Shown piece by piece: positions 19,163 to 57,477 of a stretch of DNA of 64,000 bases (the first letter of the stretch is position 1; each line of letters begins with the position of its first letter). The notes beneath the pieces were generated by a model that was not told where the DNA came from, did not search any database, and saw only the letters and a program-made list of their open reading frames with translations. A program made the translations under genes and the position numbers. The stretch covers positions 434,001-498,000 of the forward strand of contig JAMXDE010000045.1 in NCBI GenBank assembly GCA_026770025.1. The letters are read 5' to 3'. This stretch comes from Craspedostauros australis (Eukaryota; Bacillariophyta; Bacillariophyceae; Mastogloiales; Achnanthaceae).

Positions 19163-19842
19163 GCGTTGGCAGAAGTGGCGAGAGTGGCGCAGGTGGATGC
19201 GTTCCTATTGGCACCACTCATGATGCTCGCAGAGTGTTCTTGGGAGATGTGGAGCATTCTCCGAGATGTTGACCCATCCTGTTTGAAGCTAGAGATGTAG
19301 ACTACTTGTGCTCAATATATGTCTGTAAATGCACACTTACCGTAACTTTCAATACGTGAGTCGTTGGCTTGAATCTCATTGGAAACGTGCATAAAACGAT
19401 ACCATTTCAGCTTGGTACCGAAGTACCATCCAGTGCAAGAACGCAAAATGGGCCCAAAGGCTTCGCTGGGTGTCGAATTCACGAACAACCACGCGTGCGA
19501 CACACGTAAACGTGTATCGAATCAGTCATGGGATCAAGACACCACAAATTTTGTTTCCCCTCATGTTTCCGCGGTTGTCGTCTTGAACTGTGGGACAATG
19601 ACATCGCGGGGTAGCTCACAAGGTGGAGGCGCCCAACAACATCCACACGGTTCGTTCTGAGCCGGATGCTCTCCGTGCCATCAGTGTTGCCATCGGTGTA
19701 CCATTCTCACATACTGATACTCGTGCCTCGCATCCCACACAAACAAGGCAAGGCAAGGCAAGGCAGAGCATAGTTACCATACATCCTCGTACTCGTACTC
19801 GTACTCGTAATCCACATACACCACACATTCCCCATCGTGGCA
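19163..19842. other. Spacer between the tandem exostosin copies
   Basis: Contains the 3' end of copy 1 and the promoter of copy 2. A short AAGGCAAGGC tandem lies near 19747 and an ACTCGT microsatellite (CGTACTCGTACTCGTACTCG) near 19787. No ORF is supported. Confidence 0.4.
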
Positions 19843-26286: not shown

Positions 26287-29200
26287 ATGACCACCTTCAT
26301 CGCAGCAGCAGGCCGAGACAGACTCATTTCACCACCACCAATGTCTCACCATCCCATCCAGAACACCGCAAACAGCGGCGGCAGGGAATCCGAACCGCCA
26401 CAACATCAACATCAACTTCGGGATCATCGCCACCAACCACAGCAACAGCAATTGGAACAGCATGCAAGGAAGAAGCCGCGAGAAGACCATCCGCAACCTC
26501 CTCATTCATCCACAACAAGCATTCCGCAGCAAGGCGAAGCATCCAACATTGAAGCCAACATTGAAGCCAACAGCACCGATGCCATTACGGCACTGACACC
26601 AAACCAACATCATCAAACAAAAACACCACAACCACCACAAGTATTGCGAGAAGCATCGCCATCCATTCAACTCGAGCATCAAACACGGTTTGGGTCATCC
26701 TCTTCAGTGCACGTGACACCAAGACAAACATCAAGAATACCAAGCACGACCACGACGTCAACAGCAATCGCAACAGCAACAGCAATACATGTCACAGCAT
26801 CTACCACAGCTATTTCCAACAGAAGCTCTCTTTGCTCAAACCTCACACCACAGAAAGAACAAGAACAAGTACCCCCGCAAGCAACGACACAAGTACCAAT
26901 ACAAACACCGACATCAACACCAACACAAGCCGATGACACCATGATGATCACACAACGATCACGACCAACGACAACCGCGATGATGGCGAAGTCTGGTGCG
27001 ACAGGGAAAGGCACGACACCAGAAACAGTACTGGCACACCATGTCAACGCGATGATGGCAACCGGGACACGACTGAAGGCATCGTTTCTGACGGACGATA
27101 ACAGACGATCCATCAGCTCCCACCAACAACAAAACGGGACTTGCCGTGTTGCCGCCACGTCTGAAGAAGTTGGCAACGCCACCACGCCGACGCGCCACGA
27201 TAGAACGAGTTCGAAGCAAATCGAGGACCACGTCGCCGTGGACACGTCTCGTGAACCAGACGAACAAAACATCAATGCAAGTGCGCAACATCAGAACATG
27301 CCAGCGCACAGGATGATGGATTCGGAGATTCAGGAACGATGCACGCCAACATCTGCCAACGCAGCCAATCGTGTTGTTGTTGTTGGTGGTGGTGCTGCCG
27401 ACAATCATGGACAACAGACACTCATGGGTGCTGAGTCAAGCGATGCCAACGCACTCAGCGTCGTCAACACGAGTGATGGGCGTCAACATCGGCAACAGCA
27501 GGAGCTCCAGCAGCAGGTACAGCAGAGTCAGAACATGCCAATACAACAACAACCTCTCCTGTCAAGCGCAATAACTGTGGTTGTAGCACCAGCGACGCTG
27601 CAGGTTGCTCGCACTCCAGAGACAAACTCTCATCCATCAACTGCCACTCGGCATTCTGCCAACACCGTCACGAATGGCAACAGAACAACAACGACAACGC
27701 AGAGCGCAGGTTTCAATCATTGTGAAGGATCAGAACTTTCACGTGGAGCTTCGCAAAGCATTTCAGGTGGAACCCAGCCTTCACTTCCACCTTGCACACA
27801 ATCAACAGTCCAAGGTCCAGCTCCCATTGCTGCCAAACGTGTCCAAGTGCCGAATGGACAACGCACAAGTGCAAACCAACAAGCCGCACTTCCTTCGTCT
27901 CATTCTTTGTCATCAGCAAGTCCAGGACAGAACTCATTGAAGACTCCTGTTGCTGAAGTACGCCCAAGTGCATCGCTCATGCCGCAACCGTCCCCTTCGG
28001 ACGCAAACCCACCGAATCAGCAGGCAGCCAGTACCAGCAGTACAAGCACCACCAGCACAAGCACAAGCACAAGTACAAGCACTTCCAGTCCAACCGCGCA
28101 GATTGCAGCTGCATCGCCATCAGAATCGAACAAGCGCACGCACGCTGCAGCATTCGCGTTGGAAACTTCATCGGCCAGCGCCACATCTTCAAGCAGTCCC
28201 AGAACGCCGACCGATTCTACGTCTCCCGATCGCAACTGCAAGACTGCCAGAATCGTGCCTTTCAACGGTGCATCTCAGACAACCCCGGAATCTGTCACGT
28301 CCTTCACACCAACGCAGAACACTCCCAGCATGTCCATTCTGTCCACCGTCACGGCGACAGCGACACCGTCGTCGGCATCGCCATCGCAAACGAAGAGTCC
28401 CCAAAAGCGCGGCAGGAAGAGGAAACAGCAACAAGGCACGAACACGGGACGCTGGACTCCGCAAGAACACAGGGCGTTCCTCGAAGGCCTCCGCATTTGC
28501 GGTCGAGAATGGAAGCGCGTCGCAAGCCGCATCCCCACGCGAACGTCCGCCCAAATTCGCTCGCATGCGCAAAAGTACTTTGCCAAGCTGCAGCGCGAGC
28601 ATGAAGAATCAGCGTCGGCCGGTATGTTCCTCACTGCGTCGCATCTGGCCGATCCGCGGTTGATCGCTGTGCAGCCGAATGCAAACAACGCACCGTCCAA
28701 CAGTCAAGCCGCATCCATTCCAAACGCACAACTGCCAGTCTCCGTGCAGCGCAACGTGCAGCGAATACTCGAGAATCCATCGGCGGTGCAGCAGGAAGTC
28801 GAGACAACGCTTCAGGCTCTGCGACGACGGTACCAGAAGCTGCAGCGGCGTCTCGAACGACAGCAACGCAAGCAACAAGCGCCGCGGCCGTCCACCAATT
28901 TTGACCGACAGAAACAGTTGCTGGAGACCCGCTCGTCCACCAGTCCTCGTAGTCTTCCGCCCACGCCGACCGAAGCACAGGGCGAACTTCAGATCGTTGT
29001 GGAGGTCGAGACGTCCACCAATCCACCCGCAAGCAGCAACGTGGCAGCCGCGCAACGCGCCGATACCGACGTCCGATCCATCCAATCCTCCGCGTCCTCG
29101 CGCGAGCTCGACAAGGAAGAACTGATTGCGCTGCACGTGCTGGGTGGCAATCTGCGCCGCGATCCCAACTTCCAGAGCACGGCCTCGCACACGTCCCACC

Positions 29201-29340
29201 TCTCGTCGCTTGCTTCTGTGCACGAGCCAGCGGCGGCACCGCAACATCAACGCGACGCTGCGAGCGGCAGCAGCAGCAGCACCGGAAGTAGTCAAGAACA
29301 TACAACGACCACCACAACCAACAGCCATGAACAAGAATGA
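26287..29340 (+). CDS. Large SHAQKYF-class MYB protein
   Basis: A single open frame of 1017 residues from ATG 26287; an ATG at 26341 is an alternative. Residues 1-~705 are low complexity, rich in Thr, Gln, Ser, Asn and Pro, with a Ser/Thr repeat (STSTTSTSTSTSTSTSS) near 580. A basic PQKRGRKRKQQQ stretch then precedes one MYB repeat: GRWTPQEHRAFLEGLRICG with W723, EWKRVASRIPTRTSAQIRSHAQKYF with the SHAQKYF signature at 759-765. Downstream, ~842-875 (VQQEVETTLQALRRRYQKLQ and onward) is a basic coiled coil, probably for dimerisation. It is expected to be a nuclear sequence-specific DNA-binding protein. The long disordered N-terminus is unusual in size, but the frame stays open for 3 kb and supports a real gene. 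Confidence 0.88.
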   Translation: MTTFIAAAGRDRLISPPPMSHHPIQNTANSGGRESEPPQHQHQLRDHRHQPQQQQLEQHARKKPREDHPQPPHSSTTSIPQQGEASNIEANIEANSTDAITALTPNQHHQTKTPQPPQVLREASPSIQLEHQTRFGSSSSVHVTPRQTSRIPSTTTTSTAIATATAIHVTASTTAISNRSSLCSNLTPQKEQEQVPPQATTQVPIQTPTSTPTQADDTMMITQRSRPTTTAMMAKSGATGKGTTPETVLAHHVNAMMATGTRLKASFLTDDNRRSISSHQQQNGTCRVAATSEEVGNATTPTRHDRTSSKQIEDHVAVDTSREPDEQNINASAQHQNMPAHRMMDSEIQERCTPTSANAANRVVVVGGGAADNHGQQTLMGAESSDANALSVVNTSDGRQHRQQQELQQQVQQSQNMPIQQQPLLSSAITVVVAPATLQVARTPETNSHPSTATRHSANTVTNGNRTTTTTQSAGFNHCEGSELSRGASQSISGGTQPSLPPCTQSTVQGPAPIAAKRVQVPNGQRTSANQQAALPSSHSLSSASPGQNSLKTPVAEVRPSASLMPQPSPSDANPPNQQAASTSSTSTTSTSTSTSTSTSSPTAQIAAASPSESNKRTHAAAFALETSSASATSSSSPRTPTDSTSPDRNCKTARIVPFNGASQTTPESVTSFTPTQNTPSMSILSTVTATATPSSASPSQTKSPQKRGRKRKQQQGTNTGRWTPQEHRAFLEGLRICGREWKRVASRIPTRTSAQIRSHAQKYFAKLQREHEESASAGMFLTASHLADPRLIAVQPNANNAPSNSQAASIPNAQLPVSVQRNVQRILENPSAVQQEVETTLQALRRRYQKLQRRLERQQRKQQAPRPSTNFDRQKQLLETRSSTSPRSLPPTPTEAQGELQIVVEVETSTNPPASSNVAAAQRADTDVRSIQSSASSRELDKEELIALHVLGGNLRRDPNFQSTASHTSHLSSLASVHEPAAAPQHQRDAASGSSSSTGSSQEHTTTTTTNSHEQE

Positions 29341-40161: not shown

Positions 40162-41734
40162 TTGCAATAGTGCGTGCAACACGGGGAAGATGACGCCACC
40201 ATGTCCAGTGATGAACATTTACAAACACGAAGAGAGAGAGAGGAAGTGAACCAGTCTTATCGTATCGTATCATACCACATCCTTGTACAAAGATAGAACT
40301 GTGGATCCGCAAAGCGAACACAAAACACAACATCCCATGACACACAACGTACATAACAACATTCATGTCAGATTACTGTATTTCATAATATTACAGTACA
40401 AAGAACACCACCCGGGGGGCAGTTCAAAATGCAATAATTGGCTCTATTCCATAGCGTTTAATTCATAAATCGCTTGTTTCCGCCTAGTTCTTATCCTCGA
40501 CGGAATAATATGGAATTTTTGTTATTTTTTGGATAATTGGTGCTTTCCCCCCAAAATTCGCCCGAGTTGCTTTCGCTCTTCGTCATTGCTCCATTTCCCC
40601 ACTTTACACTGTGTCGGTGTTTGCTGCGCGTGTTTTCGTCTCCGGTCGGCGCAAAACAAGGCTGCTGTCTTGGGCCAGCACAGAGCACACAAAACTCACA
40701 ACCCCAAACTCTCCACAGAGATCGTTGCTCCACAGAGCACTTCGTTCCTGTTACAATCACAACCACAACCACAACAACAACAGGTACACCAACATCACCA
40801 CTGCAACAGTGTTTCGTCCATGGGTGGCTCCTGTATGCGATGCAACTGGAATTCGTCCGTTCCAACAGTTCTTCCTGCACCAGCAATGATGTCCGGTGAA
40901 TTAGTTGCTTGGTTGCCACTGTGCCACATCAACAATGGAATGCTTGGCTGTAGTTCGTTGTATGCCTCAATTTGTGTTCGATACACATTGTGTTCGCCCA
41001 TCATGCAGATCGGACATGTGGGCTTCCTGTGGGTGACTGCATTCCCTCCATGCACATGACTGTCCATTTGCTTGCACTCCTTGTCCTGGTTTCCAGATAA
41101 CGAGGACCGCCATGGTAGGATCACAACCGAGGTGATTCTGTCCGCACCGTCTCTCTGGATTTTGGTGTCCTTCTTTTGTTGTTGTCAGGTGTGTTGGTAC
41201 AGCCATTCGTTCCTTTGTTGACATGTCCATGACTATCCTTTGTTGTTGGGAATGAGGTTCATGTGCATGCTCGTATTGTCGGTTCTGTTGACATCATCAA
41301 CATACAGTGGGGCATTCTAGTGTCGACCTTCTAGGCAACGCAAAACACCCCCAGGCTGGTGGGGATGCCATGCTCCTTTTCGTACATCCGCATTATCTAC
41401 ATGCCACCCTCAAGCAAGGTGCATTGCAGTGAACAGCTAAACATGCATTGTGTTGTGGAACCATGACAGTGTTGTGTTGGCCATTCGTGCTACATGCTTG
41501 TTGTAGTCTTTTCTTTGGAGGTGCCTGTGTTGTTTTCCGTTTTCCTTCTCACAGCATGGGTGCTCGCACATGCATGCACGCTCTTCCGCAATTCACTGAC
41601 AGCCACAACAAACTCCATTGCGGGTAGCACCAACGCAAATGACAAACAACGACGCAGCTACTTGTGCAACACCAGATGAACGATACGAGATTGAGGTAGG
41701 GACTATGTGAAAATTCTATTATGCACCAGACGGC
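40162..41734. other. 3' UTR, then presumed left arm of transposon 1
   Basis: The first ~250 bp look like the 3' region of the MGC gene. From about 40411 (a short G-run, then CAGTTCAAAATGC) the sequence changes character and probably belongs to the transposon whose transposase ends at 41735. No ORF here has a family match. Confidence 0.35.
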
Positions 41735-42959
41735 TTACTCCCGTCCAGAGCTGCTGTCATCACTGCTTGCACTGCCACTCGTTCTGCTGTCACTCGTCGG
41801 GCTGCTGCTGATGCTCCCACTTGTTGTGCTGCCACTCATGCCCTCGCTTGTTGTGCTGTCGTTCATACCCTCGCTCGTTGTGCTTTTGCTCTTGTCACTT
41901 CTGGCTTCTTCCTCCACCATTTCCTCCATATCCACCTCCCGTGAGGTGTCTGCTCCTGAGGGGGGCACCAGTGATGCCACCCAATTCTCCATTTCCCTGA
42001 TATCCGCCATGGTCTCCTGCAGGTCAAACAAAGGATTTTCATGCTGCAGTTCGAATTGTGTGATAGCTGCGATGGCATACATTGCCAGTTGGTGTTTGCA
42101 AAGTTGGTGCCGCCACTCCACCCGCAAGCACTTCCAGTTTTTGAAGCGTTTGTGAACTGTTTCGTGCCTTGCACGTATCACTCCATTGTATCTGGTCCTC
42201 TCAATGCAACACGAAGGCTCACCCCTGTAGCCTTGATCCGCAATCACCTGCTCCCCTTTGTCCAGTTCCTGCCTCAGCTTGCGTCGAAAAATGGTTACAT
42301 CATTCCACTCCCCACATGGAAATGGACCCTCAACCCAAACAAGATGGCCAGTCTGAATGCACACACCAGTCTCGTATCTGAGGCCTGCCCCATTGAATTT
42401 GTGAGAGTACCAATCTGTGTCGAAAGGATTGGGCTCCACAATCCGAAAGTCAGTGCCATCCACGGACATGAAAACAGTGTTGTGGCCAACACTGCCATTC
42501 TTGCGTTCCTCTATTCTGATCTGCAGTGATACAAAAAGGAACTTGAGCATGTGCAAGGGATGTGAGTCATGTCAGGCAAGCACACGCATTCAAGTCATCT
42601 CCACACACAGCACCAAGTTCACTCACCTTTGTTCTGCTCAGTCGTGCAATGCCTTCCAAAACAATCCATGTCCACTTCATTAATGTTCTGCGATCCCTAT
42701 TCAGCATCACTGAAAGAATCTCCCATGGAATGTATTGCTTCAGGAATACGAGTGCACCAAGCATGTGGTTGATTGTGGTGTTGCCTGGTAGCAGCCCGTC
42801 TTGTGTCAGTGCTGTCCATACTGCAGAAGCCACTGCGATGCTGGTCCCATACATCCTGCGGAAAAGGATGGTGAGCCATGGGGGTTGCTCCATGCAAGTG
42901 AGCATGTCCACGTCGCGACCCACAATTTGCATACCAGAGTGGGCAATCTCAACCTCCAT
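41735..42959 (-). CDS. PIF/Harbinger-like transposase (DDE_Tnp_4), copy 1, two exons
   Basis: Exon 1 is 42627-42959 and exon 2 is 41735-42520. The phase-0 intron has a GTGAGT donor and a TATCACTGCAG acceptor. The joined product is 372 residues. Exon 1 carries the helical N-terminal region (LGALVFLKQY, then RDRRTLMKWTWIVLEGIA) typical of HARBI1-like transposases. Exon 2 carries the DDE nuclease: D132 in SVDGTDFRI, a second Asp in IADQGYRGE, and the Glu in RARHETVHKRFKNW, with the family segment VWVEGPFPCGEWNDVTIF between. All three catalytic acids are present, so the enzyme may be active. The last ~75 residues are an acidic Ser/Thr repeat tail (TTSEGM/TTSGS) absent from copy 2. The intron lies at the same place as in copy 2, immediately before the DDE core. 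Confidence 0.88.
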
Positions 42960-43479
42960 CGTCTTCTGAATGAGTCATTGCGAGGTGGAGCAAGTTGATG
43001 CACAATGTAGTGGATTGGATGTTGGCTTGATGGTGGATCGGATACTGTCGTGGGCAGGTATTGTGAGAAGTAGTTGATTCGGTTGCTTGCACATGATTGT
43101 TGGCTGTCGTTGTTGTTGACATCAATATTTTGTTGGCATCAGGCAGCATGTGAGTTGCTGTCGAGGTGCAGCCGATGGCCATCGCACATTGATGCTGACA
43201 TCTCGAGAAGCAGAGTCCGCCATTTGCTGCATTGCACAGCAATCACTTGCAATACACGGTGATGCAGAACACAAAGATTTCCGTGTTTGTCTCCACGATC
43301 TGTTGGCTGGTGGGAGTATTCGCGCGCTGTTCTCTCAACGCGAGTTGGTCTTGGGTCATGTTCCTTGGCTTCCTCAGACATTCCACAGAACACTCACTGA
43401 CATCGACATCATTCACGAACATCCATGCAAGATGTCCGTAAGACAAATCGAGGCTTATAACATGGATACATATTCAGTC

Positions 43480-43890
43480 CCTTTCCGCGCAAGCCATCCA
43501 TTTGGTTGAAACATAGTATATCAATGACACAGGAGCGTTCCAATCCATACAAGCCCTCCATTTGGTTCCAACAGTGTTCATGACAGGGACAGATTTGTTC
43601 TTGTCCGTACAAGCCCTCCATTTAGTGGAAAGAGCGTTTATCAATGACACAGGAGCGTTCCGATTCATACAAGCCCTCCATTTGGTTCAAAAAGCGTTTA
43701 TCAACAGCACAGATTAGTTCTTATCCATACAAGCCCTCCATTTGGTGGAAAAACGTTTACTACAGATGCAGATTAGTTGTTATCCATACAAGCCCTCCAT
43801 TGGGTGGAAAGAGCGTTTATCAATGGCACAGATCTATCAATAGCACAGATCAGTTCTTATCCATACAAGCCCTCCATTTGGTTGAAAAAC
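43480..43890. repeat. 60-bp minisatellite
   Basis: Seven imperfect units, marked by CAAGCCCTCCATTTGGT, recur near 43490, 43550, 43610, 43670, 43730, 43789 and 43868. The period is almost exactly 60 bp until the last unit, which carries an insertion. Units alternate between ACACAGGAGCGTTCC and ACAGATTAGTTCTTATCC inner segments. Confidence 0.85.
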
Positions 43891-44106
43891 ATTCACTACC
43901 GGATAAGATTATTTCTTATCCGCATAAGCCATCTGCTTATGTTCATAGAGCATTCACTACCGGATAAGATTTGTTCTTATCCGCATAAGCCATCTGCTTA
44001 TGTTCATAGAGCATTCACTACCGGATAAGATTATTTCTTATCCGCATAAGCCATCTGCTTATGTTCATAGAGCATTCACTACCGGATAAGATTTGTTCTT
44101 ATGGTG
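43891..44106. repeat. 61-bp minisatellite with two hairpins per unit
   Basis: Units start with ATTCACTACC at 43891, 43952, 44013 and 44074 (the last is partial). Each contains CGGATAAG and CTTATCCG separated by 7 bases, a perfect 8-bp stem, and ATAAG...CTTAT around CCATCTG. The inner segment alternates ATTATTT/ATTTGTT between units, implying a two-unit higher-order period. Confidence 0.9.
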
Positions 44107-44680
44107 CTATTCATATGGATAAAACTGCGCCTATCACATAAACATAGGTGCAAATCTGCCCTTATAAGCCCGCGTTAAAGCAATATTGGCGGCTATGGGC
44201 CAGAATCAGATGCATTTCTGGCCCTTATGCGCTATCCATAAGGACGCGATGAGTCTTACAACATAGACTCAATTTTGTTTCGTCCTCACAGCAGTTATGC
44301 ATAAGACGCAAATAGTGCTTTTGAAGCCGTCCATAAGGCCAAAACAGCGCTTATAATTCTATCCATAGAGGTGTTTTCGACACTATGGAGCCGTCATAAG
44401 ACTGAATTGGATGTTACGACTACTTCGACTCAATATGAAGCGCTATGCCTATCCAATGTGACCAACACGCCATATTCGTAAGGACAATACATTCCTTATC
44501 ACACAGGCATCAATTTAAGTGCTTCATGACACCAATCCAAACGGTGAATATTGCCCTTATGGAGTGGTCATAACGCAATTTTCACCCTCAAAAAGTGATT
44601 CATAAGGCCAAATTAGCCCTTGTGAACCCGGCATAGACGTTAATTCATCCTTTCCCGCGCTCCATACACTCAAATATTGC
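44107..44680. repeat. Degenerate CTTAT/ATAAG-rich zone
   Basis: No regular period remains, but CTTAT and ATAAG keep recurring, as in CCTTATAAGCC and CTATCCATAAGGACG. It looks like older, decayed array material linking the 61-bp and 48-bp arrays. Confidence 0.6.
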
Positions 44681-44687
44681 GTATGAA

Positions 44688-45170
44688 GAGGACCGATTAT
44701 GCATTTAACAGAAGCGCAAAAGTGCGTTATGATCGTAGGACCGATTATGCCTTTAACAGAAGCGCAACAGTGCGTTATGATCATAGGACCAAGTATGCCT
44801 TTAACAGAAGCGCAAAAGTGCGTTATGATCGTAGGACCGATTATGCCTTTAACAGAAGCGCAAAAGTGCATTATGATTGTAGGACCGATTATGCATTTAA
44901 CAGAAGTGCAAAAGTGTGTTATGATCATAGGACCAAGTATGCCTTTAACAGAAGCGCAAAAGTGCGTTATGATCCTAGGACCAAGTATGCCTTTAACAGA
45001 AGCGCAAAAGTGCGTTGTGATTGTAGGACCAAGTATGCCTTTACCAGAAGCGCAAAAAGTGCGTTGTGATCGTAGGACCGATTATGCCTTTAACAGAAGC
45101 GCAAAAAGTGCGTTGTCACCGTAGGACCAAGTACGCTTTCAACGCAAGCGTAAAAAGTGCCTTGTGAACG
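44688..45170. repeat. 48-bp minisatellite, about ten units
   Basis: Units carry AGGACCGATTATGCCTTT or AGGACCAAGTATGCCTTT, then AACAGAAGCGCAAAAGTGCG. Period is 48 bp, with 49 bp in the last units where the A-run grows. Because 48 is a multiple of three the array stays open in several frames (for example MPLTEAQKCVMIVGP repeats), but this is not evidence of a gene. Confidence 0.9.
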
Positions 45171-45752
45171 AAGGACCGATGCTGTACCTACGCATTGTGG
45201 TTCCGAAGACGAACATTGGCCCTCCTTCGCGTTGTCGCCATCCCGCGAATGGCTTTTCGCGCTTGCAGCAACTTGGTTACGCCCCTTTGACATCGGCCAT
45301 TGTTACAGTTTGTACGGGGAACAGTACACCCTTCTTGGGCACCGGTGTCTTTTGCCACGGACAGGAACACAAAAAACACTTCAAGCCAATGCAAGTATCT
45401 CTTGACATTTCTTTTCTGATGTTCAGATGGCCACGAATTACAATCGTTGTACATGTGTGTGCAAGACACCAGCGCGCGTCACCAGCGCATGTAATGCGTC
45501 GTCGGCAAGAAATTGCTGCGATGGTTGTTTGCTCGTTGCAAAGCACAGCATCTTCCATGTCCTTGGCAACCACACAGCAGCACCCCATGGCCAACTCTGC
45601 GAATGAGGACGACACAAACCACATCACACCAACGTACACACATCCATTGCGCCAAACACTGCTGCTCTCTCGCAGGTGCACTTCAATGGAGCCTTGGGTT
45701 GAGCAGAGGTGCCCTTTGTCACACAAATCAGAAACACAACCAACCACCGATC

Positions 45753-48359
45753 ATGACGCCACCAAGGAAACGAGCCCCTCGCTTCTTGAAAAAGGGAGTC
45801 GACGCCAAGCTCCTCATCCGTGAGCTTGCAGCTGATCCCAACTTGTGGATGTGGGAGCCTTGCCACATCCGAGACAAGTATCCGACCCTCGCAAAGTATC
45901 CAGCAAAGAACTTCATCAAAGGGTATGTGACGCTGAAGAAAACGCTCGTGAAGAACAAGATCTTCTTTGGTAAGTCAACTCCAATGCAGGCAACGTGTGG
46001 GCCCGACCACTCGGTGGACACATTCATTTGGGGTGGTGGCGATTGCCCTGTTGCATTTCTTGTCCTCGAACTTTGCTTTGATCATGCTGCACAAACACAT
46101 CACAACTCACAAGCAACCACTCGATCTCTTCATCTGTTTGCTTTTGTGAGGGTTTTGGCAGCAAATGGACGCTTCAATCCAGACGCATCAGGTAACTTGG
46201 GCATGCATCTTCGCCCCATCGATGAGCCAGAGGGCTTCGACAACACGAAGCCCTCGAAATCTCCTCCTGCAAAGGCCGTCGCAGAAACCACAACAACACC
46301 CACAATGACAGCACTCTCCAAAAACGCTGCCACCAACACAGACAAGAGCTGCCATGGAGAAGGGAATCAAAACCCATCTTTGCAAATGGCATCAAACACC
46401 AATGGGTCGTTCCGAAATGATGCCTTCCTTGACGATGACTGGGCCATGGGCGACTTTGGCGAGGAACTTTCATCAGTGTTTGGTCGAGAAATGGACTTCG
46501 ATGATGACATTGAAGTTGTGGGCATGACAGGCCCTCCACCATACAACTCACTGACAGCAAGATATGGTCATTTCTTTGACATGGCCGAGAACTCTCGCGT
46601 CGCCCAGTTCTCTTCCGTCCCAACACATGTGGACGTCTTCTACACTACACAATTGTGGAGACCGAAGGGAGAGGCATTCCGGATGATCAGCATCGACTTC
46701 TACATGCCTGCAGCCACCATCCAGCAGGATACACAGCTGACCATTCAATATCGCGAAGTGGGTGGGGTGCCTCGGCCCTTTGTGGTGCTGAAGTATCGGC
46801 CTCCAGTGGCCATTGGAGCAAAGGGGGGTATTGCAAAGGCCATTTGCAACCTTCAGGCAACCTGCTTCGTCGATGCAGCACAGAAGGCACAAGCACACGA
46901 CCTGCAAATGCAGAAGGCCGGTTTTGCAAAGGGGCACTGGTGCGAAATGCTCGTGCCAATGCCCTTCGCTATCGACACCATGTTCTGTCCATCCGCTTGC
47001 GGCACGCTGGGGGGCGTTGTCTGGCTCAATCATGTGATGCCAGACAACAATGGGCAACCACGTAAAGTCCTCATCTTGTCGACGAGGGTGAAGGAGAAGA
47101 CAACGACTGTGGGAATGACGTGCAGGTTTTCAAAAATGCATGCACTTGGTTTCAACTCAGGCGGAACCAATCCCATCGACAAAGGGGCCAAGTCACAAAT
47201 GCTACCTCCACAGTCACACAGAATCCCCCAATACACGGACAACAACAGCAACTCCAGCAACTCCAGCAACCCGCCATCTGCCAGCAATGCCCAGAAGGTG
47301 ACCCCATGGCCACAACCCTTGCAACCCAGGAGCCCAATGGGCAGCCGCATTCAACAAGGCTTCCAATCGCCAAGAACGACACAGAATCCCCGCACCCTTG
47401 GAGCACGCAACATGCTTCATGGAGACGATCAATCAGTCACGACGCAGGTGACTCAGGTGTTGGAAGCCCAACTCGAATGCCAGGTTGGGAGGGTGGCCGA
47501 ACTTGAGCTGAGGGTGGCACTGCGAAAGCAGGCTGCCAGAGAAAGGGCAGAGCTGAGACGGCAAGGACAGCTCAACCAGAGCCGTCCGGGAATGGTGGTG
47601 ACTGGTGGTACAGCTTCTGATGAGGCTGCCAGAAACCTTCCTAATGGTGTCTTCAACAAAATGGACGACCTCACCAGACCGTATTTCGTAAAGGGCCCAG
47701 GATCAGTCCAGCACCCGGCAATGATGCAGAATGGTCAGAATGAGACGGGCAACATGCAGTCGACGAATCCGCAGCAACCCAGCACAGGGCAGATCCTTCC
47801 ACACGGACGGGAGGAAGGAATATCGGCAACAACAACAGCTCAGATGTCTCCTCCACCACCACGATTTGTTTATCCATGTGAAGGAATGCTGGTCCTTGCA
47901 GACCAAGCCAACAAACTGACAGAGGCAGCAGCGGTGGGAGCAGCGGCAGCAGAAGCAACCAACCTTGCAACTGCAACAACCACCATCACAGCGGGGTCCA
48001 CAGCTGTAAATACGAATCAGAATCCGGAAGGAGAGAATGTGAGGCAATCCGCAGGCAGTGCAGGAGCTCAAATGACCAGTCAGGAGGCGTCAAACCAACC
48101 TGAAGGCGGAGGGGATGGGCCAACAACCAACAACTCGTTGGTCGAAGATGTTGAGATAGTGCAGGACCCAACAGCACCATTGAATGCTGCAGAGGCACCA
48201 TTGAATGCTGCAGAAGCACCATTGAATGATGCAGAAGCACCATTGAATGATGCAGAAGCACCATTGAATGTTGACGAGGCAATGGACATGACTGGAGATG
48301 GAGAGAGGCAGGGTGACAATGGAGGCAGTGACGGAAACGAGCATGACACAACAAACTAA
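45753..48359 (+). CDS. Transposon accessory protein 1 (unknown family), two exons
   Basis: The ATG is at 45753. The likely intron is 45970-46161 (GTAAGT donor, TTTTGGCAG acceptor, phase 1); exon 2 is 46162-48359. The spliced product is 804 residues. N-terminal domain ~14-72: basic and aromatic, LWMWEPCHIRDKYP, then NFIKGYVTLKKTLVKN. An acidic, low-complexity linker follows. A beta-rich core spans ~194-395 (HVDVFYTTQLW, RMISIDFYMPAAT, TLGGVVWLNHVMPDN). A coiled coil lies at ~497-542, and five 7-residue repeats (APLNAAE/APLNDAE) at ~743-778, encoded by 21-bp units at 48174-48278. Family and function are unknown. Its divergent pairing with a Harbinger-like transposase, as in element 2, suggests the role the MYB-like partner has in classical Harbinger. 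The 192-nt intron has no stop, so a retained-intron form with 64 more residues is possible. Confidence 0.75.
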   Translation: MTPPRKRAPRFLKKGVDAKLLIRELAADPNLWMWEPCHIRDKYPTLAKYPAKNFIKGYVTLKKTLVKNKIFFGKSTPMQATCGPDHSVDTFIWGGGDCPVAFLVLELCFDHAAQTHHNSQATTRSLHLFAFVRVLAANGRFNPDASGNLGMHLRPIDEPEGFDNTKPSKSPPAKAVAETTTTPTMTALSKNAATNTDKSCHGEGNQNPSLQMASNTNGSFRNDAFLDDDWAMGDFGEELSSVFGREMDFDDDIEVVGMTGPPPYNSLTARYGHFFDMAENSRVAQFSSVPTHVDVFYTTQLWRPKGEAFRMISIDFYMPAATIQQDTQLTIQYREVGGVPRPFVVLKYRPPVAIGAKGGIAKAICNLQATCFVDAAQKAQAHDLQMQKAGFAKGHWCEMLVPMPFAIDTMFCPSACGTLGGVVWLNHVMPDNNGQPRKVLILSTRVKEKTTTVGMTCRFSKMHALGFNSGGTNPIDKGAKSQMLPPQSHRIPQYTDNNSNSSNSSNPPSASNAQKVTPWPQPLQPRSPMGSRIQQGFQSPRTTQNPRTLGARNMLHGDDQSVTTQVTQVLEAQLECQVGRVAELELRVALRKQAARERAELRRQGQLNQSRPGMVVTGGTASDEAARNLPNGVFNKMDDLTRPYFVKGPGSVQHPAMMQNGQNETGNMQSTNPQQPSTGQILPHGREEGISATTTAQMSPPPPRFVYPCEGMLVLADQANKLTEAAAVGAAAAEATNLATATTTITAGSTAVNTNQNPEGENVRQSAGSAGAQMTSQEASNQPEGGGDGPTTNNSLVEDVEIVQDPTAPLNAAEAPLNAAEAPLNDAEAPLNDAEAPLNVDEAMDMTGDGERQGDNGGSDGNEHDTTN

Positions 48360-48931
48360 GCAGCAACCACGTGAGAAATAGATACACACCTTTGAAGAAT
48401 CTATTGTGGATGTAGTGTGCCCATGATAGTCGGAACAAACGAGGAAGTACTGAATGGTTGATTTGTACCATAAGAAGAATGACATTGTGTGGGTAGTGGG
48501 AGAGTAGAAGGAAGCACAAGTTGGCCATGACAATGAGGAATGTCCGGACAACACACACGATCAGGCGACAGGGTGTAAAAGTCAAAAATGGAGCCACGAA
48601 TCTGGGTTTTGCATAAATCAGGATGATTGTGCAAACAACTGACAGGAAGAATGCTCAAAGATGGCAAATTTTCAGTTTGGTTTTTGACTTTTGAACTGCT
48701 GATTATGGAAGAAACTGTTGTTGCCTTATCATGGGAAATGCAAAATTACCGTCTTTCCCCCCCCCCCCCCGATGGCGCAGAGCAGCGTCTTGTCTCGTGT
48801 TGGATGCTGTACCATACTGTCAATGGCATGGCCAAAGACACGGATCGATACCGCACGAGACAGGCACAAACACAACACAGATACAAGGACGCTACCAACA
48901 TGAATGGATAGATGAACAACGCAAGCTGCAG
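48360..48931. other. Right arm of transposon 1 and a short host segment
   Basis: AAAAGTCAAAAA near 48579 and its inverse TTTTTGACTTTT near 48682 form a 12-bp inverted pair. A 14-base C homopolymer lies at 48757-48770. From there to 48931 the sequence resembles host DNA and ends in the CAG target site of transposon 2. Confidence 0.45.
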
Positions 48932-48967
48932 GGAGTCATCGTAAAAGTTGCAAATAAATTTAATTTG
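48932..48967 (+). repeat. Left terminal inverted repeat of transposon 2
   Basis: Begins GGAGTCATCGTAAAAGT, continues A/T-rich and ends AATTTG. It matches the inverse of 55101-55136 at 30 of 36 positions. It is flanked outside by CAG. Confidence 0.92.
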
Positions 48968-50050
48968 CTTTTTCGCCGACTTCACGGGTCCCACGACAGC
49001 AAAGGGACGAAGTTGTTGCGCATACAATGACCACTTCGACCAAAACAAAACGAAGACCATCGACCCACTCGACCAACGCACAACACAATCCGCCTCGGCA
49101 CTGGTGACCTGGTCAGACTTCGAGAACATTCGATATGACTACTTCGAATGACCTTCCTGGAAGAACTTATTTAGGCTCTATTTTTCCGCTTCAACGATTC
49201 TGGCGTATTGGTGTGGTGTGTTGTGTCTCACACGTCGGGTCGCGACCGATGGCCGTTTGCCGCACATCCCATCGTGCCGCATCACAACACACCACACCAA
49301 CCAAACACCGTCCCCCTGTTTCTCGTCTCACAACACGATGCCTGCGATCCACGCAAGAGGGCCCAAAACATCGGACAACACAACCTGCTTTGCATCGTGT
49401 TTCATCACCAGGACAAGTTGCGGTTGGTGTTTTGCCTGACAGTGTCGTTTGTTATCGAATGGTGTTTGTTGCAACAGATAGTAGGAGTCCATCATTCCTT
49501 ACCAATGGTGAAGACAAGCTTGGCATGGTCTGCAAGTCCTGGTTACACCACCATCATTTTCTCGTCGTCATGCTCTTGTTCGTCCCAGAATTCTGCCATG
49601 ATGGTCTGCGCTCGAAGATCATGGTCGGTACAGCTGAATACCTGGCATATTCATTGCTGTGACAGTGTTGTGCACGATGGCTCGTCGTCGTTCATCAAGC
49701 TTGCTGTAGAGTATTGGAATTGCATGCCATGTCACATGCGATATTGTGTGGAACAGAAACACTGAATGCAGTGCATCCTGTGTCGATCGACGTGATGAGT
49801 TGGTTCACACAATTTCCACATGGTCAATCGCACTATCGAGATGCTTGGAACCAAAAATGAAATGAATACTATTCTGTGAAGCATACCGCTTGCACTTGCA
49901 GTGGCTCCAATCTGCACACAACAGAGTAGAATAGAGAAGAGGTGTGCTGCCATATTAACTTAATTGCTCTCAGGTTATTCTGTGCTATTGATGAACCAGA
50001 TCGAGGCCATCTTTGTCATGGCAATCAGCAGTTGATTTGTAAATAATTCC
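48968..50050. other. Left arm of transposon 2
   Basis: Lies between the left terminal repeat and the transposase stop. It contains overlapping frames on the plus strand (49135-49765) with no family resemblance. It presumably holds the transposase 3' UTR. Confidence 0.45.
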
Positions 50051-51051
50051 TTAGTATGTGACATGGAATGGGCGATTGCCTGCATTGATCTGAATCTGTG
50101 TGATGGCAACAATGGCCTTGAACACATACTTGTGCAGGTTGCGATCATGGCGGAAGCGCTGCTCAAGAATCTTCCAGTTCTTGAATCTGCCATTGATGGT
50201 CTCATGCCGTGCTCGTGCGATGCCCTTGGCCCTCTTCTCTGCCATGGAGACGAAGTCATCAGATGTTCTGACGCATTCATCACCACGATATCCACGGTCC
50301 GCCTCGATCATCTCACCATCGTCGAGGTAATTCTTGAGACCAAGCCGAAAGATCTTGAGGTCTGGATGAGACCCACAAGGGAAGGGTCCGTTGATCCAAA
50401 CAATGTCGCCGCGTTGGATGGAGATCCCAACTTCATATCGCAAACCAGGTCCGCGGAATTTGTGGGAGTACCATTTCTTGTTGAATGGGGTTGGTTCTTC
50501 AATTTGAAAATCGGTGCCATCCACTGTGATCCTGCATGAGTGGTCAACTTGGCCGAGGTTGCGGCGCTCCCACACAACCTGAAAAGGAATATGCACAATG
50601 GGTGTGAGTGTGTTCATTGGGAATCAAGCAATTGCACATCATCACAGCAAAGCAGATCCAGACAGGCTTCATGCGGACTTACCAGAGTGTAGAGCTTCGA
50701 AGCAATTTGCTTGATCACAAGCCACGTGTATCTCTTGAGAGTCCGATCTGCCACTCCAAGGAAGACACAAGCCATGCGGACAGTTGGATAGTGACGCAAA
50801 TAGTAGAGCGTCCACAACAGATGTTTGGGCTTGAATGGAGCAGCAAAATCGCAGTGCTCCCAGATGCGAAGACACAAGTGTGGATTCACACCGAATGTGG
50901 ATGCGAAGCTCTCTCCGAACTGAGACTGCGCAAGAGGGTGGTTACCATTTCTGGCCTTCAGAGTGATGTTCATCAAGAACTGACCGACAGTCACGAAGTC
51001 ACTGACATCCACATTGGCGTAGTCGAAGCGAGATGCCATGCTTGCTTTCAT
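50051..51051 (-). CDS. PIF/Harbinger-like transposase (DDE_Tnp_4), copy 2, two exons
   Basis: Exon 1 is 50683-51051 and exon 2 is 50051-50578. The phase-0 intron has a GTAAGT donor and a TTCCTTTTCAG acceptor. The start is the first in-frame ATG (51051; 51039 is an alternative), giving 298 residues. Exon 1 has the N-terminal helical domain (KHLLWTLYYLRHYPTVRMA, then ADRTLKRYTWLVIKQIA). Exon 2 has the DDE core: VDGTDFQIEEPTPF (first Asp), WINGPFPCGSHPDLKIF, EADRGYRGDE (second Asp) and RARHETINGRFKNW (Glu). It ends soon after, without the Ser/Thr tail of copy 1. The order of motifs and the intron site match copy 1, but the sequences have diverged well beyond a recent duplicate. Confidence 0.9.
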
Positions 51052-52655
51052 GTGCGATGGTGATGGTGTTTGTGATGGTGCTTGCGATGGCTTTTGTTCG
51101 ATCAAAATTTCGAAAGTATGCGCTCAATGATGATGTTGGGTGCACGTTTTTGTTTGTTGCTTGCGTTTGAATGCCAGGATGGCATCTTGACGATCTTCTG
51201 TGGCTGTCAACCTCAGCTAGCTGGAATGTATCAATGTACAAACAAGGAAATGGAGATGGATGGTGTGAGAATCAACATGGAATGCAGATCAAGGAACCCG
51301 CCTTTGGTACGAATGCCACATGACACGCCACGACAGCAAAGACTGACACCACTCATCCTCAGTGTGCTCGTCATGATGAGCGGTGGGATCAAAGCAACGA
51401 CACTCAATTCAAGGATTGTCAATGGCAGCAATGTTCAGAAGATCAAACGTACCAAGTGGAGTCAAATTGAGTTCATCAGCTGCTTTGGAGGAGTTTCATC
51501 TTGTGAGAGATGCATGAACTGTCATTGGTGCTCAAGAAGCACTGCTCGCCATCCAACTGGCACAGGTGTTGCTGTTGGTTCGTTTCTCCGCGCAACTTCT
51601 GGTGGGAAGCTGCTCCGCCACGAAAATCGAACGTCAAGTTGGTGCTGCTGGTGGAAAACACCACATGAACGAGTCAGAACAATGCAGCGCGCACACCCAG
51701 CACCAAAACGGGCGCGCGAATGTGTGCACACAGTGTCATGGAAACTTAGTGCGAGACGGGACTTCAAGGGCCAGCAGCAACCAGTTTAATTCGTTCCATC
51801 TAACGGAACCAACTGTCACAACGACACCCCCTGCCGTCCGATACGACAAATCAAAATACAGTGACGACATCGCAAAATAAATTGACGACATCGCAAAATA
51901 AATTGACGACAGACAAGAATCGCACCGGGCCTTCTTTTCATTTCTGTTTGAAACGGTGGCTGGTGAGTTGTGTTTCGTTTTGTCGTCATTTGGGGAACAA
52001 AAGATCCCTGAGGGAAGATCCTACGAACAGTTCCTACTGGATTTCTACGGAGAACCGGCTGGCGTTCACGTATTGTTGATAGTACGACACGACTTGAAGT
52101 CTTGCTTTGTCGTAGAAAAACCGTGTCCTGTCGTACGATTTTGGCATGACGACGTCGCAAGAATTCGAGTTGTCGTCACCGACGACATGTGATCACGTTA
52201 ACATGATTTGTGTCCGTCCCGCAAACCAAACACTGAACAACAAGCGAGGCTACGCGGCTTCCCACATGCGAAAATCAATCACGAAATGAGCACAACAGCG
52301 CCACAAAATAAGTGTCCTCCTCCTCAAACTGCAAATGGCAAGACATGAATACTGCAATGATGTTCGATGATGAATCCATTTGAATGATTGAGTGTTCTAA
52401 ATCGTCTCGTTCCAAACCTTACTGTTAGTTGTAGTGCAAGCTAGTCGTACCGATTCCTCGTTCGTGGCTTTGGATGACTTTGCCTCCTCTGTTCATCAGA
52501 GGTGCGCTCTCTCGATGGAACTTGTGCATGGGCTGACCCTGACTTGCAAGCATCGCACCGATAGGTTGCGCATTTCGATCAATCTATTGTCCTCCCAACT
52601 CATGCTGTTGTTGCAGGATGGATGCAGATCGTCGTGTGTTCACAAATCATGCACG
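51052..52655. promoter_or_regulatory. Divergent promoter of transposon 2 with an ACGAC/GTCGT cluster
   Basis: This 1.6-kb spacer lies between the two start codons. Within 51820-52190 the pentamer ACGAC or its inverse GTCGT occurs 13 times, against less than one expected by chance. It includes two direct copies of TTGACGACATCGCAAAATAA (near 51861-51908) and the compact GTCGTCACCGACGAC dyad near 52171. It probably contains both promoters and binding sites for an element-encoded protein. Confidence 0.6.
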
Positions 52656-54784
52656 ATGTCACAAAATCGAAACGACGACGGCCGCTGGTCAGCAACAGGC
52701 GACCACGCAGCGTACATCATCAAAGGCTTCAGTGAAATACCTCCACGCTTCCACCCCTCCATCGAAGGGTTCAACCATTTCTGGGAAACACACACTGATT
52801 GGCAAGCCAAATACAAGAAACAGAACCTCCAACGCAACTACAGAAGCTGTCACAAGCGCTTGCAAAAGTTTCTGCAAACTGGCAAAGGTACGAATTGACT
52901 GAGAGCATTTGATGGTTGTTTGATGTTGGCGTTGCATTGCTGGTTGCAACCACTCACTTCCTCTCTGTGCTTTCAGGCTTTGGACTCGAGTTTCGTGCCA
53001 AGTGTGGATTGAGCACGCCGGAAAATTACAGTGATTTGCCGAAGGAACGTCAAGACGCCCTCCAGTACCACCCATCAGGCCGCAACAACAGCAACGACAC
53101 GAACGACGAGGACTTCGAACCCAACAACAAAGACGAGGACGACACCAGCTGCGACGACGAGGAGGAGCTTTCTAATTCACCAACAGTTGTAAACGCATCA
53201 CGCTCCAACAGAGCCAGCGGTACCGACGACATCAGCGACAGCACTGACGAGAGTTTCTCCTTCGCTGGATCCAAATCGGACGAAGCTTCCGCAGATCAAC
53301 TGCCGCCCGACTTCATCGACGACGAGCTCAGTCTCGCCACTCCACCATTCATCATGCCTCGTCGTACCACAGTGCCCAAATCCGCGAAGTTCGCACCAAC
53401 CACCATCACAAAGCGCGCAACGCCCAGCCGCGGCAACAACAACATCGAAGAAGCAATGAGCAGCCTCAACATCAACCACGAGAAAGGAAAGGAGGAAATT
53501 GTGGCAACTTCGAGCGCCGAAATGGTCAAGCAAGGATCGTTCCGAGAGAATGCGCCCGATCCGGTGTTGGGAGGCGGCCTGATCCACAACCGCCGCGGAG
53601 TTCACATCTTCTTTGTGCTCGAACCGCTTGTCAACCCGGAATCTATTCGCTTCTCCAGCGAGGATGATGGGTGGAGCGTTAAATTGGCGTACAAGCTACC
53701 GGCGACTTATTACTCCGCAAGCAGCATCTACGGGCCATTCACGGATCGTCCTCACTTTTCCGTTGGCCTTCGTCAGGGACAAGAAGCGCTTCGCTCGATG
53801 GCACAATCGCAAGCCGATGAGAACGGTGAACTCGCAGTCACGCGCAGGGTAAGTGTTGACTTCCAGATGGACAACAACTTCCGGCATGCTGTGACGAAGA
53901 TGCCAATGCCTGAGCAGTACCACATCATTTACAACGGGCTGGGGTCGTTCACCATCGCAGCGTTTTGTTTTGAGCGGCAGCAGAAGGCAGCGATTCCGCT
54001 CGGGCACACCATCTCGCGCACCATCGAGGGAATGGCGCCAAACAATACATTTGGTGGAACACCATTTGGGACACCACAACGCAGCCACAACGGGTTTGCA
54101 CCCAGCGTCTTCTCTCCACCAGGAGCCCCAGCATTCTCAGGACACCATGGCGTCGCTGCCAACGGGCATGGATTTGCTGCTACTGGGTTCGGAGCACAAC
54201 AATTTGCAACCCCAACTCAACCACATCAACAGGGAGCAGCAAGCCAATTTGGCAACATCCCCCAAGCAGCAAACTTCGTGCCGCGCTCTACTGGGCGCCA
54301 CAAGAATGAGCAAGAGGCAGCCCACAACCAAGCAGCGGAGGCTCGTGCGCAACAGGAGGAGGCTCGTCGTCGCCAGACGGAGCAGGAAGCCCGTGCTCTC
54401 ATTGAGCAGGCAAACGCTCGCGCGAACTTGGCACAACAGAGGGCGGCAACCGAGGCAGAAGCGCAGGTCCGTGCTGCGCAAGCGCACAATGCTCGTCTCA
54501 TTGAGCAAATGAGAGTGCTTGAGGAGGAGAAGGCCAAGTATGCTCGCATGGTGGAGCAGCAGCGCACAGCAGCAGCGAGCAACATTGACGATACCGGATT
54601 CTCCATCTCGGACATGCCACAAGCCCCCACAGCAGGGTTTGTGCATCGTCGCGAGAATGACCATGTCCCAAGCCGAGGCGATTCTGTTCGCCAACGAATG
54701 GATGGTGTCCCAGCCTCTGTCACAACAGGAAGTCATTCAGCTGCTGTCTCTGAGGATGGGCTTGCATCAACTGTGCATGCATGA
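52656..54784 (+). CDS. Transposon accessory protein 2 (unknown family), two exons
   Basis: Exon 1 is 52656-52887 and exon 2 is 52977-54784. The intron is phase 1, with a GTACGA donor and a GTGCTTTCAG acceptor. The product is 679 residues. N-terminal domain ~17-75: HAAYIIKGFSEIPPRFH, then HFWETHTDWQAKYKKQN and a basic SCHKRLQKFL end. A strongly acidic Ser/Asp linker follows (~95-190). A beta-rich core spans ~273-416 (RRGVHIFFVLEPLV, WSVKLAYKLPATYY, EQYHIIYNGLGSFTIAAF). A Gly/Pro/Phe spacer leads to an Ala/Gln/Glu-rich coiled coil at ~518-608. Domain order and the phase-1 intron just after the N-terminal domain match accessory protein 1. No known family is recognised. By position it is the partner of the transposase; DNA recognition through the N-terminal domain and multimerisation through the coiled coil are inferences. 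Confidence 0.78.
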
Positions 54785-55100
54785 GACCCATCCAATTGCA
54801 TGTCACAAGAGGATGCTCGATCAACACATCAAACAGAAAAAATGCACAATGAGAAAAAACGAGCACCAACCAAAAAACACACACACACACACACATCAAC
54901 AACACCACAAAAATCGAAAAAACACCCACAAACACCCACAAACAAACAGTGCACCAGTAGAATAAGCCGATACCGTTAGTAGTCACAGTAACGAACACAA
55001 CAAACCTGACTTGTCGCAGCGCGAGATCCAGCCACCGCAGGGATTGCCGTTGTGGATTCGCTCAAGTGCGACGAAATGCCATTGATTCGTGACCTAAGAA
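54785..55100. other. Right arm of transposon 2
   Basis: This is the 3' UTR of the accessory gene, with a CA microsatellite near 54878-54895 and an A/C-rich tract. Nothing else is seen. Confidence 0.5.
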
Positions 55101-55136
55101 CAAATTATTTCTTTTTGTGACTTTTACGATGACTCC
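55101..55136 (-). repeat. Right terminal inverted repeat of transposon 2
   Basis: Ends in ACTTTTACGATGACTCC, the exact inverse of the first 17 bases of the left end. It is followed by CAG, the same triplet that precedes the left end. Confidence 0.92.
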
Positions 55137-56469
55137 CAGGTCAGGATTGCAAGAGAAGAGTGCGAGTGAATGAATGAGTGAGTGAGATCGAGAGATGGAG
55201 CCGAATCGAAGCACTTCTCCACGACTTGTGCAGTTCTGTCATCTTTTCGCACTCGCGATTGGGCATGTTGTTGTGGTTTGGGGTGTTCTGTTTCGTTCGT
55301 TTGTTCGTTGCTTTGTGCGGACTTCCCACGATTCGTCAGTACTCCATTCTAAGACACATGCGACATGTCGTGACAGTGTCGCATCGACTACAACGGATAA
55401 ATGGTTTCGTCAGCAACAGGACATTGTCAGATGCATGTTTTTCGCATATTTTCGTCGTTTTTCTGCTAATTCCGGCAGTTCTCAGATGGGCGCCAGTTTG
55501 ACCGCGGCGATTAAAAGAACGATGTCTCCACGCGCAAGTTTTTTGGAGATGCGGTGGTACGGAACCAACATACCCAGCGACCGCACGTACCCACAATACC
55601 AACAAACCCTCAAAGGTGGCAATGGTACAAACGTTTACATACAGCAGACCAAACGTATCTTTTGAGCCAGGCAAGAAAATCACAAGGGAAAGACGACGCA
55701 ACAGGCCAAGGTGAGAGCGACAGCAAGCATGTCTTGATCCGCTTGTGTGTGTCTGCGTGCGGGCGCTTTCGTGTTTCGGTGAGGTTTGTGGTGAACATGT
55801 GACAGAGTGACTCGAAGAGTACTCTGCTCTTCGTATGGTACGACTATGTTGCATTGGGATGCACGAGCACCATCCTTCTCGTTGATGGGAGGGACGGTCA
55901 CAACCCAGCAAACAGAATCACCGACAGTCAACACATGTCATGTTGTGCACAACACCACTTTGAGGGCGCGCAATGCCTTCAGGCATCATTTGTTCCTGTT
56001 GACTGCGATCAGCTTCATGACGACAATGTCGATCGTGCATGTTATTCATTGCAGCCTGTCAGATGGCGAAGTCGAACTCCATTGTCACGATGACCACCAT
56101 GTCACAATCGGCGATGCTGTATTCGGGGGCGTGTGCCTGACACCACGCTGCCGGATGACGGAACGGAACTCCGGTTGCGGCATGGTGGAAGCGCGCGCAG
56201 CACAGCACCAGCGACGATGACAATGGCGATGATCCTCCACGGACAATCGACAGCAACAGCAGCGGCAACAAGATGAAGGCTCACACAGGCTTGACTCAAC
56301 GGCCGTCCATCCACCCCCCTTTTCTCCTTCGCCCATGGTGTCTTGTTTCGCTCTGACGTCAAATCAAACAGAGCAGCAGCGCCAGCACCTTCACTCTCCT
56401 GAAACACGCACACACACACCCACACACCACAACAACACGCAAAAGGACGTGAAAGGACGGAACTCCAAG
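55137..56469. other. Host intergenic DNA upstream of the HMG-box gene
   Basis: A TGAGTGAG/GAATGAATG tract lies near 55168. The last ~100 bases are a CA-rich leader. No frame resembles a protein family. Confidence 0.4.
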
Positions 56470-57477
56470 ATGGCGAAGAAACCAGGACGGGACCCCAACG
56501 CGCCCAAGCGCAACATGAGCGCGTACCTGCTGTACCAGAATGCCATGAGAGACCAGTTCAAGTCTCTCAACCCTGGCATGACGTTCGGTCAGCTCTCCAA
56601 GTACACGTCCGCCATGTACTCCGAGCTCACGCCGCACGAGAAGGAGAAGTGGGTTGCCAAGGCAGATGCCGACAAGGCCCGCTACCTGCACGAGCTGGAA
56701 TCGTACGAACCACCGCCGGGCTACGACAGAAAGGGCGACGCCGTCATCAGCCCCGTCATCACAAAGAGCGGCCGCCGCGGCAAGCCGGAGCGCGATGTCA
56801 ACGCCCCCAAGCGCAGCATGAGCGCCTACCTCCTGTACCAGAACGCCATGCGAGACCAGTTCAAGCGTGAGAATCCAGGCATGACCTTCGGACAGCTCGC
56901 CAAGTACACGTCGCACATGTACAAGAACCTCACGCCAGAGGAGAAGACGACGTGGGAGACCCGCGCCGCACAGGACAAGGCTCGGTACGAGGCAGAGCTC
57001 GCTGCGTACGTCCCGCCACCTGGACACGATGCGCGCGGAGTCCTCATCGAAGATCACCGCCCGCGCAAGCGCAACAAGCGCGCGCCGAAGGATCCATCCG
57101 CTCCCAAGCGGGCCAGCGGCGCCTACGTCTTCTTCACCAACGACGCCCGCCCCAAGGTCCTGCGCGAGTACCCCGGCATCAAGTTCGTCGATCTCGGCAA
57201 GATCATGGGCGAGCGATGGCGCGCGCTGACGCCGGAGGAGAAGAAGCGCTACGAAATCATGGCGGCCGAGGACAAGGTCCGGTTCCAGCTGGAGATGCAG
57301 CAGTACACGGCCAACCAAGCGGCCGCCGCCACCACCGTGCAGTCCATCCCCGAGACCTTCGCCCAGGCGGCGCCGCAGCACACCATGGATGCCGCCTTCT
57401 TCCCCAACGACGTCGTCAGCTACGGCGTCAACTACGGCAACGATCCGTACAGCCAGCTGCATCAGTACCACAACTGA
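56470..57477 (+). CDS. Protein with three HMG boxes
   Basis: The start is ATG 56470 (TCCAAGATGGCG); the product is 335 residues. Three HMG-box domains are visible, each preceded by a basic PNAPKR/PSAPKR-type motif: box 1 ~9-79, box 2 ~109-180, box 3 ~209-279. Boxes 1 and 2 are near-duplicates (MSAYLLYQNAMRDQFK in both). Instead of the core Trp of the usual 'GERW' motif they have Met-Tyr (TSAMYSEL, TSHMYKNL). Box 3 is canonical (LGKIMGERWRALTPEEKKRY). HMG boxes bind and bend DNA in chromatin. The protein lacks the acidic tail of HMGB proteins and ends in an Ala/Gln/Tyr-rich region. Expected to be a nuclear chromatin architectural protein. Confidence 0.93.
   Translation: MAKKPGRDPNAPKRNMSAYLLYQNAMRDQFKSLNPGMTFGQLSKYTSAMYSELTPHEKEKWVAKADADKARYLHELESYEPPPGYDRKGDAVISPVITKSGRRGKPERDVNAPKRSMSAYLLYQNAMRDQFKRENPGMTFGQLAKYTSHMYKNLTPEEKTTWETRAAQDKARYEAELAAYVPPPGHDARGVLIEDHRPRKRNKRAPKDPSAPKRASGAYVFFTNDARPKVLREYPGIKFVDLGKIMGERWRALTPEEKKRYEIMAAEDKVRFQLEMQQYTANQAAAATTVQSIPETFAQAAPQHTMDAAFFPNDVVSYGVNYGNDPYSQLHQYHN

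Follow-up and report, generated by a model that had tools for sequence, protein, structure and literature searches.

Transposons of the PHIS superfamily are marked by the presence of two genes, a DDE transposase, short inverted ends, and a 3-bp duplication, as described in a 2015 survey (PMC4482050). Their second proteins carry Myb/SANT/MADF domains and are reported to evolve too fast for BLAST (PMC9710019), being alike only in restricted parts of this domain (PMC9179366). A 64,000-nucleotide stretch of Craspedostauros australis (contig JAMXDE010000045.1, positions 434,001 to 498,000; further referred to as the window) contained an element of this kind, 6,205 bp in length, at positions 48932-55136 of the window, exactly the boundaries assigned to it in an earlier note on this DNA. 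With a probability of roughly 85%, this element is an intact two-gene cut-and-paste PIF/Harbinger (PHIS) transposon in a nuclear chromosome. Present activity of the element, the role of the second (partner) protein, and a Myb/SANT/MADF-like character of the latter's N-terminus are inferred. This assignment is based on the inverted ends and the duplication of a CAG target, the DDE_Tnp_4 matches of two transposases, the presence of a second, related gene pair, and host-like codon scores. The element belongs to a well-known transposon family, of which it is a good specimen and not a new kind; its helper protein is unusually large.

Both transposases are of the DDE_Tnp_4 type that characterizes the superfamily; short inverted repeats with a duplication of 0-3 bp were found for the element and not for the second pair. 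Among the described groups, NuwaI resembles the element in possessing two genes, a DDE transposase, a 3-bp CWG duplication (CAG here, in one insertion), and ends that start with G (PMC4482050). It differs in its hosts, which were recorded among animals only in the 2015 survey, in its partner with a Myb/SANT domain, none being detected in the present partner, possibly in its ends, which usually start with GGG and here with GGA if the whole CAG flank is taken as the duplication, and in its average autonomous length of about 4.5 kb, compared with 6.2 kb here (PMC4482050). The CAG duplication fits the CWG target of the NuwaI type, a rule that one site cannot settle. Pangu (Harbinger2 in Repbase) likewise has two genes and ends that start with AG or GG, and its hosts include one heterokont and two algae (PMC4482050; PMC12730594). 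As in the present partner, no known motif was found in the second gene of Pangu according to the results section of the survey, while its discussion mentions Myb/SANT (PMC4482050). Pangu differs by an ANT duplication, as opposed to the CAG of the single insertion here, and by an average autonomous length of about 3.5 kb (PMC4482050). PIF/Harbinger elements in the narrow sense, such as Harbinger3_DR of zebrafish, share the combination of a transposase with a fast-evolving second protein, a 3-bp duplication, and ends of 25-50 bp, but they duplicate TWA and not CAG (again one insertion here), and their partner of about 300-400 amino acids (aa) has a recognised Myb/SANT/MADF domain, none being detected in the present one (PMC9710019, PMC9179366). 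ISL2EU differs by its YqaJ exonuclease partner and its AT duplication (PMC4482050), as the Pfam scans of the present locus returned no YqaJ and the duplication is CAG.

Harbinger elements are also described from stramenopiles. The Harbinger families of Ectocarpus have two genes as well, but these are arranged tail-to-tail and the targets are ANT or TNA, whereas the genes considered here are divergent and the target is CAG (PMC12477816). Such elements account for a significant share of the transposons of Thalassiosira pseudonana (PMC2806351), and PIF-Harbinger elements occur in Cyclotella cryptica (PMC7466962). Harbinger4_TP, a Repbase family, has a 3-bp duplication too, and its placement close to the Nuwa lineage is weakly supported (PMC12730594). 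A literature search that ran without Repbase reports and most subscription journals retrieved no publication dealing with the second genes of Harbinger elements in diatoms. The TP of Harbinger4_TP presumably refers to T. pseudonana.

Inverted ends, target duplication, and transposase of the element

The terminal inverted repeats of the element (48932-48967, plus strand, and 55101-55136, minus strand) are identical in 30 of 36 positions, including all of the first 17, and correspond to the 36-bp repeats of the earlier note. They are flanked on either side by an identical CAG (48929-48931 and 55137-55139), a 3-bp target-site duplication that is new to the description of this locus. Counting CAG as the duplication, the ends start with GGA; if the G of the flank joins the end, they start with GGGA. 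The best alignment of both end regions scored 44, compared with a maximum of 29 among 100 dinucleotide shuffles. When the terminal 17-mer was searched for in the whole window with up to three mismatches, only these two ends were recovered, 0.14 chance matches being expected. When the sequence was scanned for paired ends adjoining a 3-bp direct flank, these two agreed in 17 of 18 positions, compared with 12 of 18 for the runner-up. The ends and the CAG duplication hence exceed chance, and together they are the best sign that the element arrived by transposition.

The transposase (294 aa) is encoded on the minus strand by exon 1 (50683-51039) and exon 2 (50051-50578), separated by a GT-AG intron of 104 nucleotides (nt; 50579-50682), which was picked from ten frame-keeping GT-AG candidates on the basis of the splice consensus and alignment with the transposase of the second pair. 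As claimed before, the protein contains a DDE_Tnp_4 domain (frame 50051-50623; E 4.1e-11, above the Pfam cut-off) with all three acidic residues in place (D139, D213, and E245). Exon 1 displayed a weak match to HTH_Tnp_4 (E 0.016; 15.2 bits, below the Pfam cut-off of 27). PDB sequence searches gave no relative. In the transposases of both pairs, the last E is surrounded by R-(3)-E-(6)-K, which we take to be a signature of the IS5/PIF type. The two genes of the element are divergently transcribed; between them lies a 1.6-kb centre (51040-52655), in which a 21-bp repeat occurs (51852-51911; 2.9 copies).

A second gene pair upstream of the element

Directly upstream of the element, the six-frame listing revealed a second gene pair (41735-48359) with an identical divergent layout, which supports the view that the element is a complete, possibly functional two-gene Harbinger-like transposon. 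On the issue of further copies, the outcome was mixed, as one more locus with both genes was retrieved, without the ends of the element. The second transposase is encoded on the minus strand by exon 1 (42627-42959) and exon 2 (41735-42520; D132, D206, and E231), and its frame 41735-42571 matches DDE_Tnp_4 above the cut-off (1.5e-7). It is 44% identical to the transposase of the element over 221 aa. The introns of both transposases lie in phase 0 at one and the same residue of the alignment and are 104 nt long in the element and 106 nt long in the second pair (42626-42521), an agreement that is partly built in, since both introns were chosen among many GT-AG candidates by means of the splice consensus and the alignment. 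The second partner gene (45753-48359, plus strand) has exons at about 45753-45969 and 46162-48359 and encodes 804 aa after splicing, its frame being open through the proposed intron.

For all four genes of both pairs, the proposed frame had the best host-like codon score among the six frames. Their third-position GC content was 0.54-0.60 (for the second partner, that of exon 2 alone), and that of the adjoining HMG-box gene, the sole host gene so measured, was 0.87. The intergenic region of the second pair (43490-45180) is full of tandem repeats, which comprise a 60-bp family and units of 61 bp (3.5 copies, 96%) and 48 bp (10.2 copies, 88%); these are possibly promoter-like or binding arrays.

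Partner proteins

The partner gene of the element was described earlier as a divergent second gene of 679 codons. Indeed, it encodes a protein of 679 aa on the plus strand, from exon 1 (52656-52887) and exon 2 (52977-54784), interrupted by an 89-nt GT-AG intron in phase 1 (52888-52976); one GT-AG intron is thus present in each gene of the element. Exon 1 has an open frame and encodes a short basic domain, predicted to be helical with low confidence. Exon 2, equally open, encodes an acidic linker, a middle region, and a coiled-coil-like stretch of 100 residues free of P, G, and W (residues 518-617). No domain of this partner reached the Pfam cut-off, the best match being Phage_int_SAM_5 in exon 1 (0.022), no NCBIfam family reached the cut-off in its exon 2 frame, and a PDB sequence search with its first 416 residues gave nothing below E 1. 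The second partner (frame 45495-48359) matched no Pfam family at E values up to 1. A different domain order, as was asserted for the partner of the element, was not confirmed, as there is no domain at the Pfam cut-off and no order to state. Single-sequence structure models had a mean pLDDT of 56 (exon 1 of the partner) and 44 (second model). Foldseek comparison with the PDB returned no matches for the former and 667 for the latter, none of them at E 0.001, and these were not used. A likeness of a strand-rich region of the partner to alpha-crystallin/CS folds is an impression only and is not claimed. A 39-bp stretch close to where the partner gene ends (54764-54801) matches positions 4902-4940 at 85% (E 1.7e-4), possibly by chance or as simple sequence.

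The first exons of both partners (77 versus 72 aa) align end to end with a z value of 3.7, a score as high being found for 0.1% of 2,000 shuffles. This score was reached by none of the 106 segments of the remainder of the second partner and by none of the 84 segments of the remainder of the first. In both genes, a phase-1 intron directly follows the first exon. The end-to-end test (0.001) was made after three other N-terminal tests and is not independent of them. As these were weaker, with p 0.018 for local alignment, p 0.055 for global alignment with free ends, and E 0.41 for hhalign of the whole partner proteins, which placed exon 1 on exon 1, homology of the first exons is likely, not proven. 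Comparison of both partners by blastp gave no significant match (best E 0.58), and local alignment of their middle regions gave p 0.16. As judged from these alignments, the short basic first exon is the sole stretch that is detectably common to both partners.

By analogy with described partners, exon 1 may plausibly be the equivalent of a Myb/SANT/MADF domain. This bears on the claim of a non-MYB partner, which is not supported, since two partners that can be aligned over their first exons only are what the published fast evolution of these proteins predicts, and a Pfam miss is to be expected for this class of proteins (PMC9710019, PMC9179366). A real replacement, with a larger DNA-binding or chromatin protein of unrelated origin standing in for a lost Myb-type protein, is rather unlikely. 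It would explain why Pfam returned no Myb, SANT, or MADF family for either partner and why both are long (679 and 804 aa), and it has published parallels, as ISL2EU pairs with a YqaJ protein (PMC4482050) and other PHIS-related families contain further genes, for instance SET or TET/JBP (PMC12730594). However, the absence of a Myb-type match carries little weight, because partners throughout the superfamily are too divergent for BLAST (PMC9710019), and the shared short basic first exon and the helices of its low-confidence model look as expected of a divergent three-helix domain.

The DDE transposase would cut at the inverted ends, and the element would insert at a 3-bp target, here CAG, that becomes duplicated. 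By analogy with Harbinger3_DR, the partner may bind DNA near the ends through its short basic N-terminal domain; it may also associate with the transposase, which would enter the nucleus together with it (PMC9179366, PMC9710019). The long remainder of the partner, with its coiled-coil-like stretch, might serve oligomerisation or contacts with the host.

A more specific proposal is a distinct stramenopile lineage of PHIS elements, with CWG targets, head-to-head genes, and a much enlarged partner in which the first exon alone was kept between relatives and the rest was rebuilt. This proposal is tentative, its representatives being the intact element and its neighbour, for which no ends were found. 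The second pair suggests fast divergence of the partner, while first exon, intron phase, and layout stay. This matters for how such partners are to be recognised at all. If active, the element would provide a transposase and partner in compact form from a diatom-like host, and the range of CWG-target elements would reach further than the animals of the 2015 survey (PMC4482050).

Mobility and points against the assignment

Alignment of the end regions and a flank scan detected no inverted ends for the second pair. The best gapped alignment of its end regions scored 23, a value reached by 66% of 200 shuffles, and the best candidate of the flank scan, in which ends had to adjoin a 3-bp direct flank, matched at 13 of 18 positions, inside the range of 11-15 of 15 shuffles. 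A 34-nt inverted match (40583-40616 and 48566-48599; 71%) was suitably placed, but it was rejected, the best gapped alignment being another pair. A right end of the second pair beyond the element was considered too. The corresponding alignment scored 32, above chance with respect to a maximum of 31 in 200 shuffles, and was GTGTTG-rich; it was rejected by judgement. The flank scan for such a right end yielded 14 of 18 positions, inside the range of 12-15 of 15 shuffles.

The open frames kept in this second pair, together with its undetected ends, are what would be seen if one or both pairs were no longer mobile and represented transposon-derived host genes whose frames are kept by selection. 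Such co-domestication of both genes has been documented in insects (PMC9710019). Nevertheless, it is an improbable explanation here, as the 17 identical terminal bases and identical flanks of the element indicate recent movement, and the catalytic loop of the second pair has lost, or never had, seven residues. Chance capture of a host gene between two inverted repeats, which would place the partner outside the transposon machinery, is very improbable. Although no family cut-off or PDB match was reached in the searches of the first partner mentioned above, the second pair contains, beside a related transposase, a gene in the same divergent position whose first exon can be aligned and whose intron phase is the same.

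Several observations weigh against an intact PHIS transposon or against parts of this assignment. A single copy with ends was seen, so that both the ends and the CAG target rest on one insertion. The transposase of the element is, with 294 aa, shorter than the 400-500 aa given in PMC9710019, and its partner is, with 679 aa, longer than the 300-400 aa given there. To this are added the Pfam results for this partner and the weaker N-terminal tests. The second D and the E have 24 residues between them in the second transposase, compared with 31 in the first; because of these seven residues fewer and the ends that were not found, the second pair may be decayed.

Wider searches and neighbouring genes

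Four protein scans of a collection of viral contigs and one of a collection of genome contigs confirmed no relatives, which is unsurprising for a microalgal nuclear transposon. The terminal 17-mer matched eight viral contigs, the stored stretches of which had no match to the four element proteins at E values up to 1. Matches to a WYSHKF-type DNA pattern (one viral and four genome contigs) were read as chance. Over all 13 loci, the best tblastn E value was 0.20. These misses say little about diatoms, as the collections consist of prokaryotes and viruses.

Immediately to the right of the element, the product of a plus-strand gene (56233-57477) contains three HMG boxes (three stretches, 1e-58). 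The frame 12411-13691 (plus) has an aromatic-rich N-terminal part and a coiled-coil-like C-terminal part, a layout that resembles a transposon partner protein; it reached no Pfam cut-off, and tblastn revealed no transposase beside it. Two single-Myb proteins of the SHAQ type are encoded at 16156-16839 (minus) and 26287-29340 (plus), the second matching Myb_DNA-binding (3e-13) and the first being recognised by eye only. One window protein, among the seven scanned, matches DUF6824, a family that we presume to be tied to diatoms. At the edge of the window, a retrotransposon polyprotein (3-3854, minus) runs off the sequence; it contains a zinc knuckle, gag_pre-integrase, and an integrase-core match below the cut-off, and is probably of the Ty1/copia type. 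Finally, two adjoining frames on the plus strand (17696-19162 and 19774-21435) look nearly identical by eye, the first encoding an exostosin of family GT47 (4e-21), and probably represent a recent tandem duplication.

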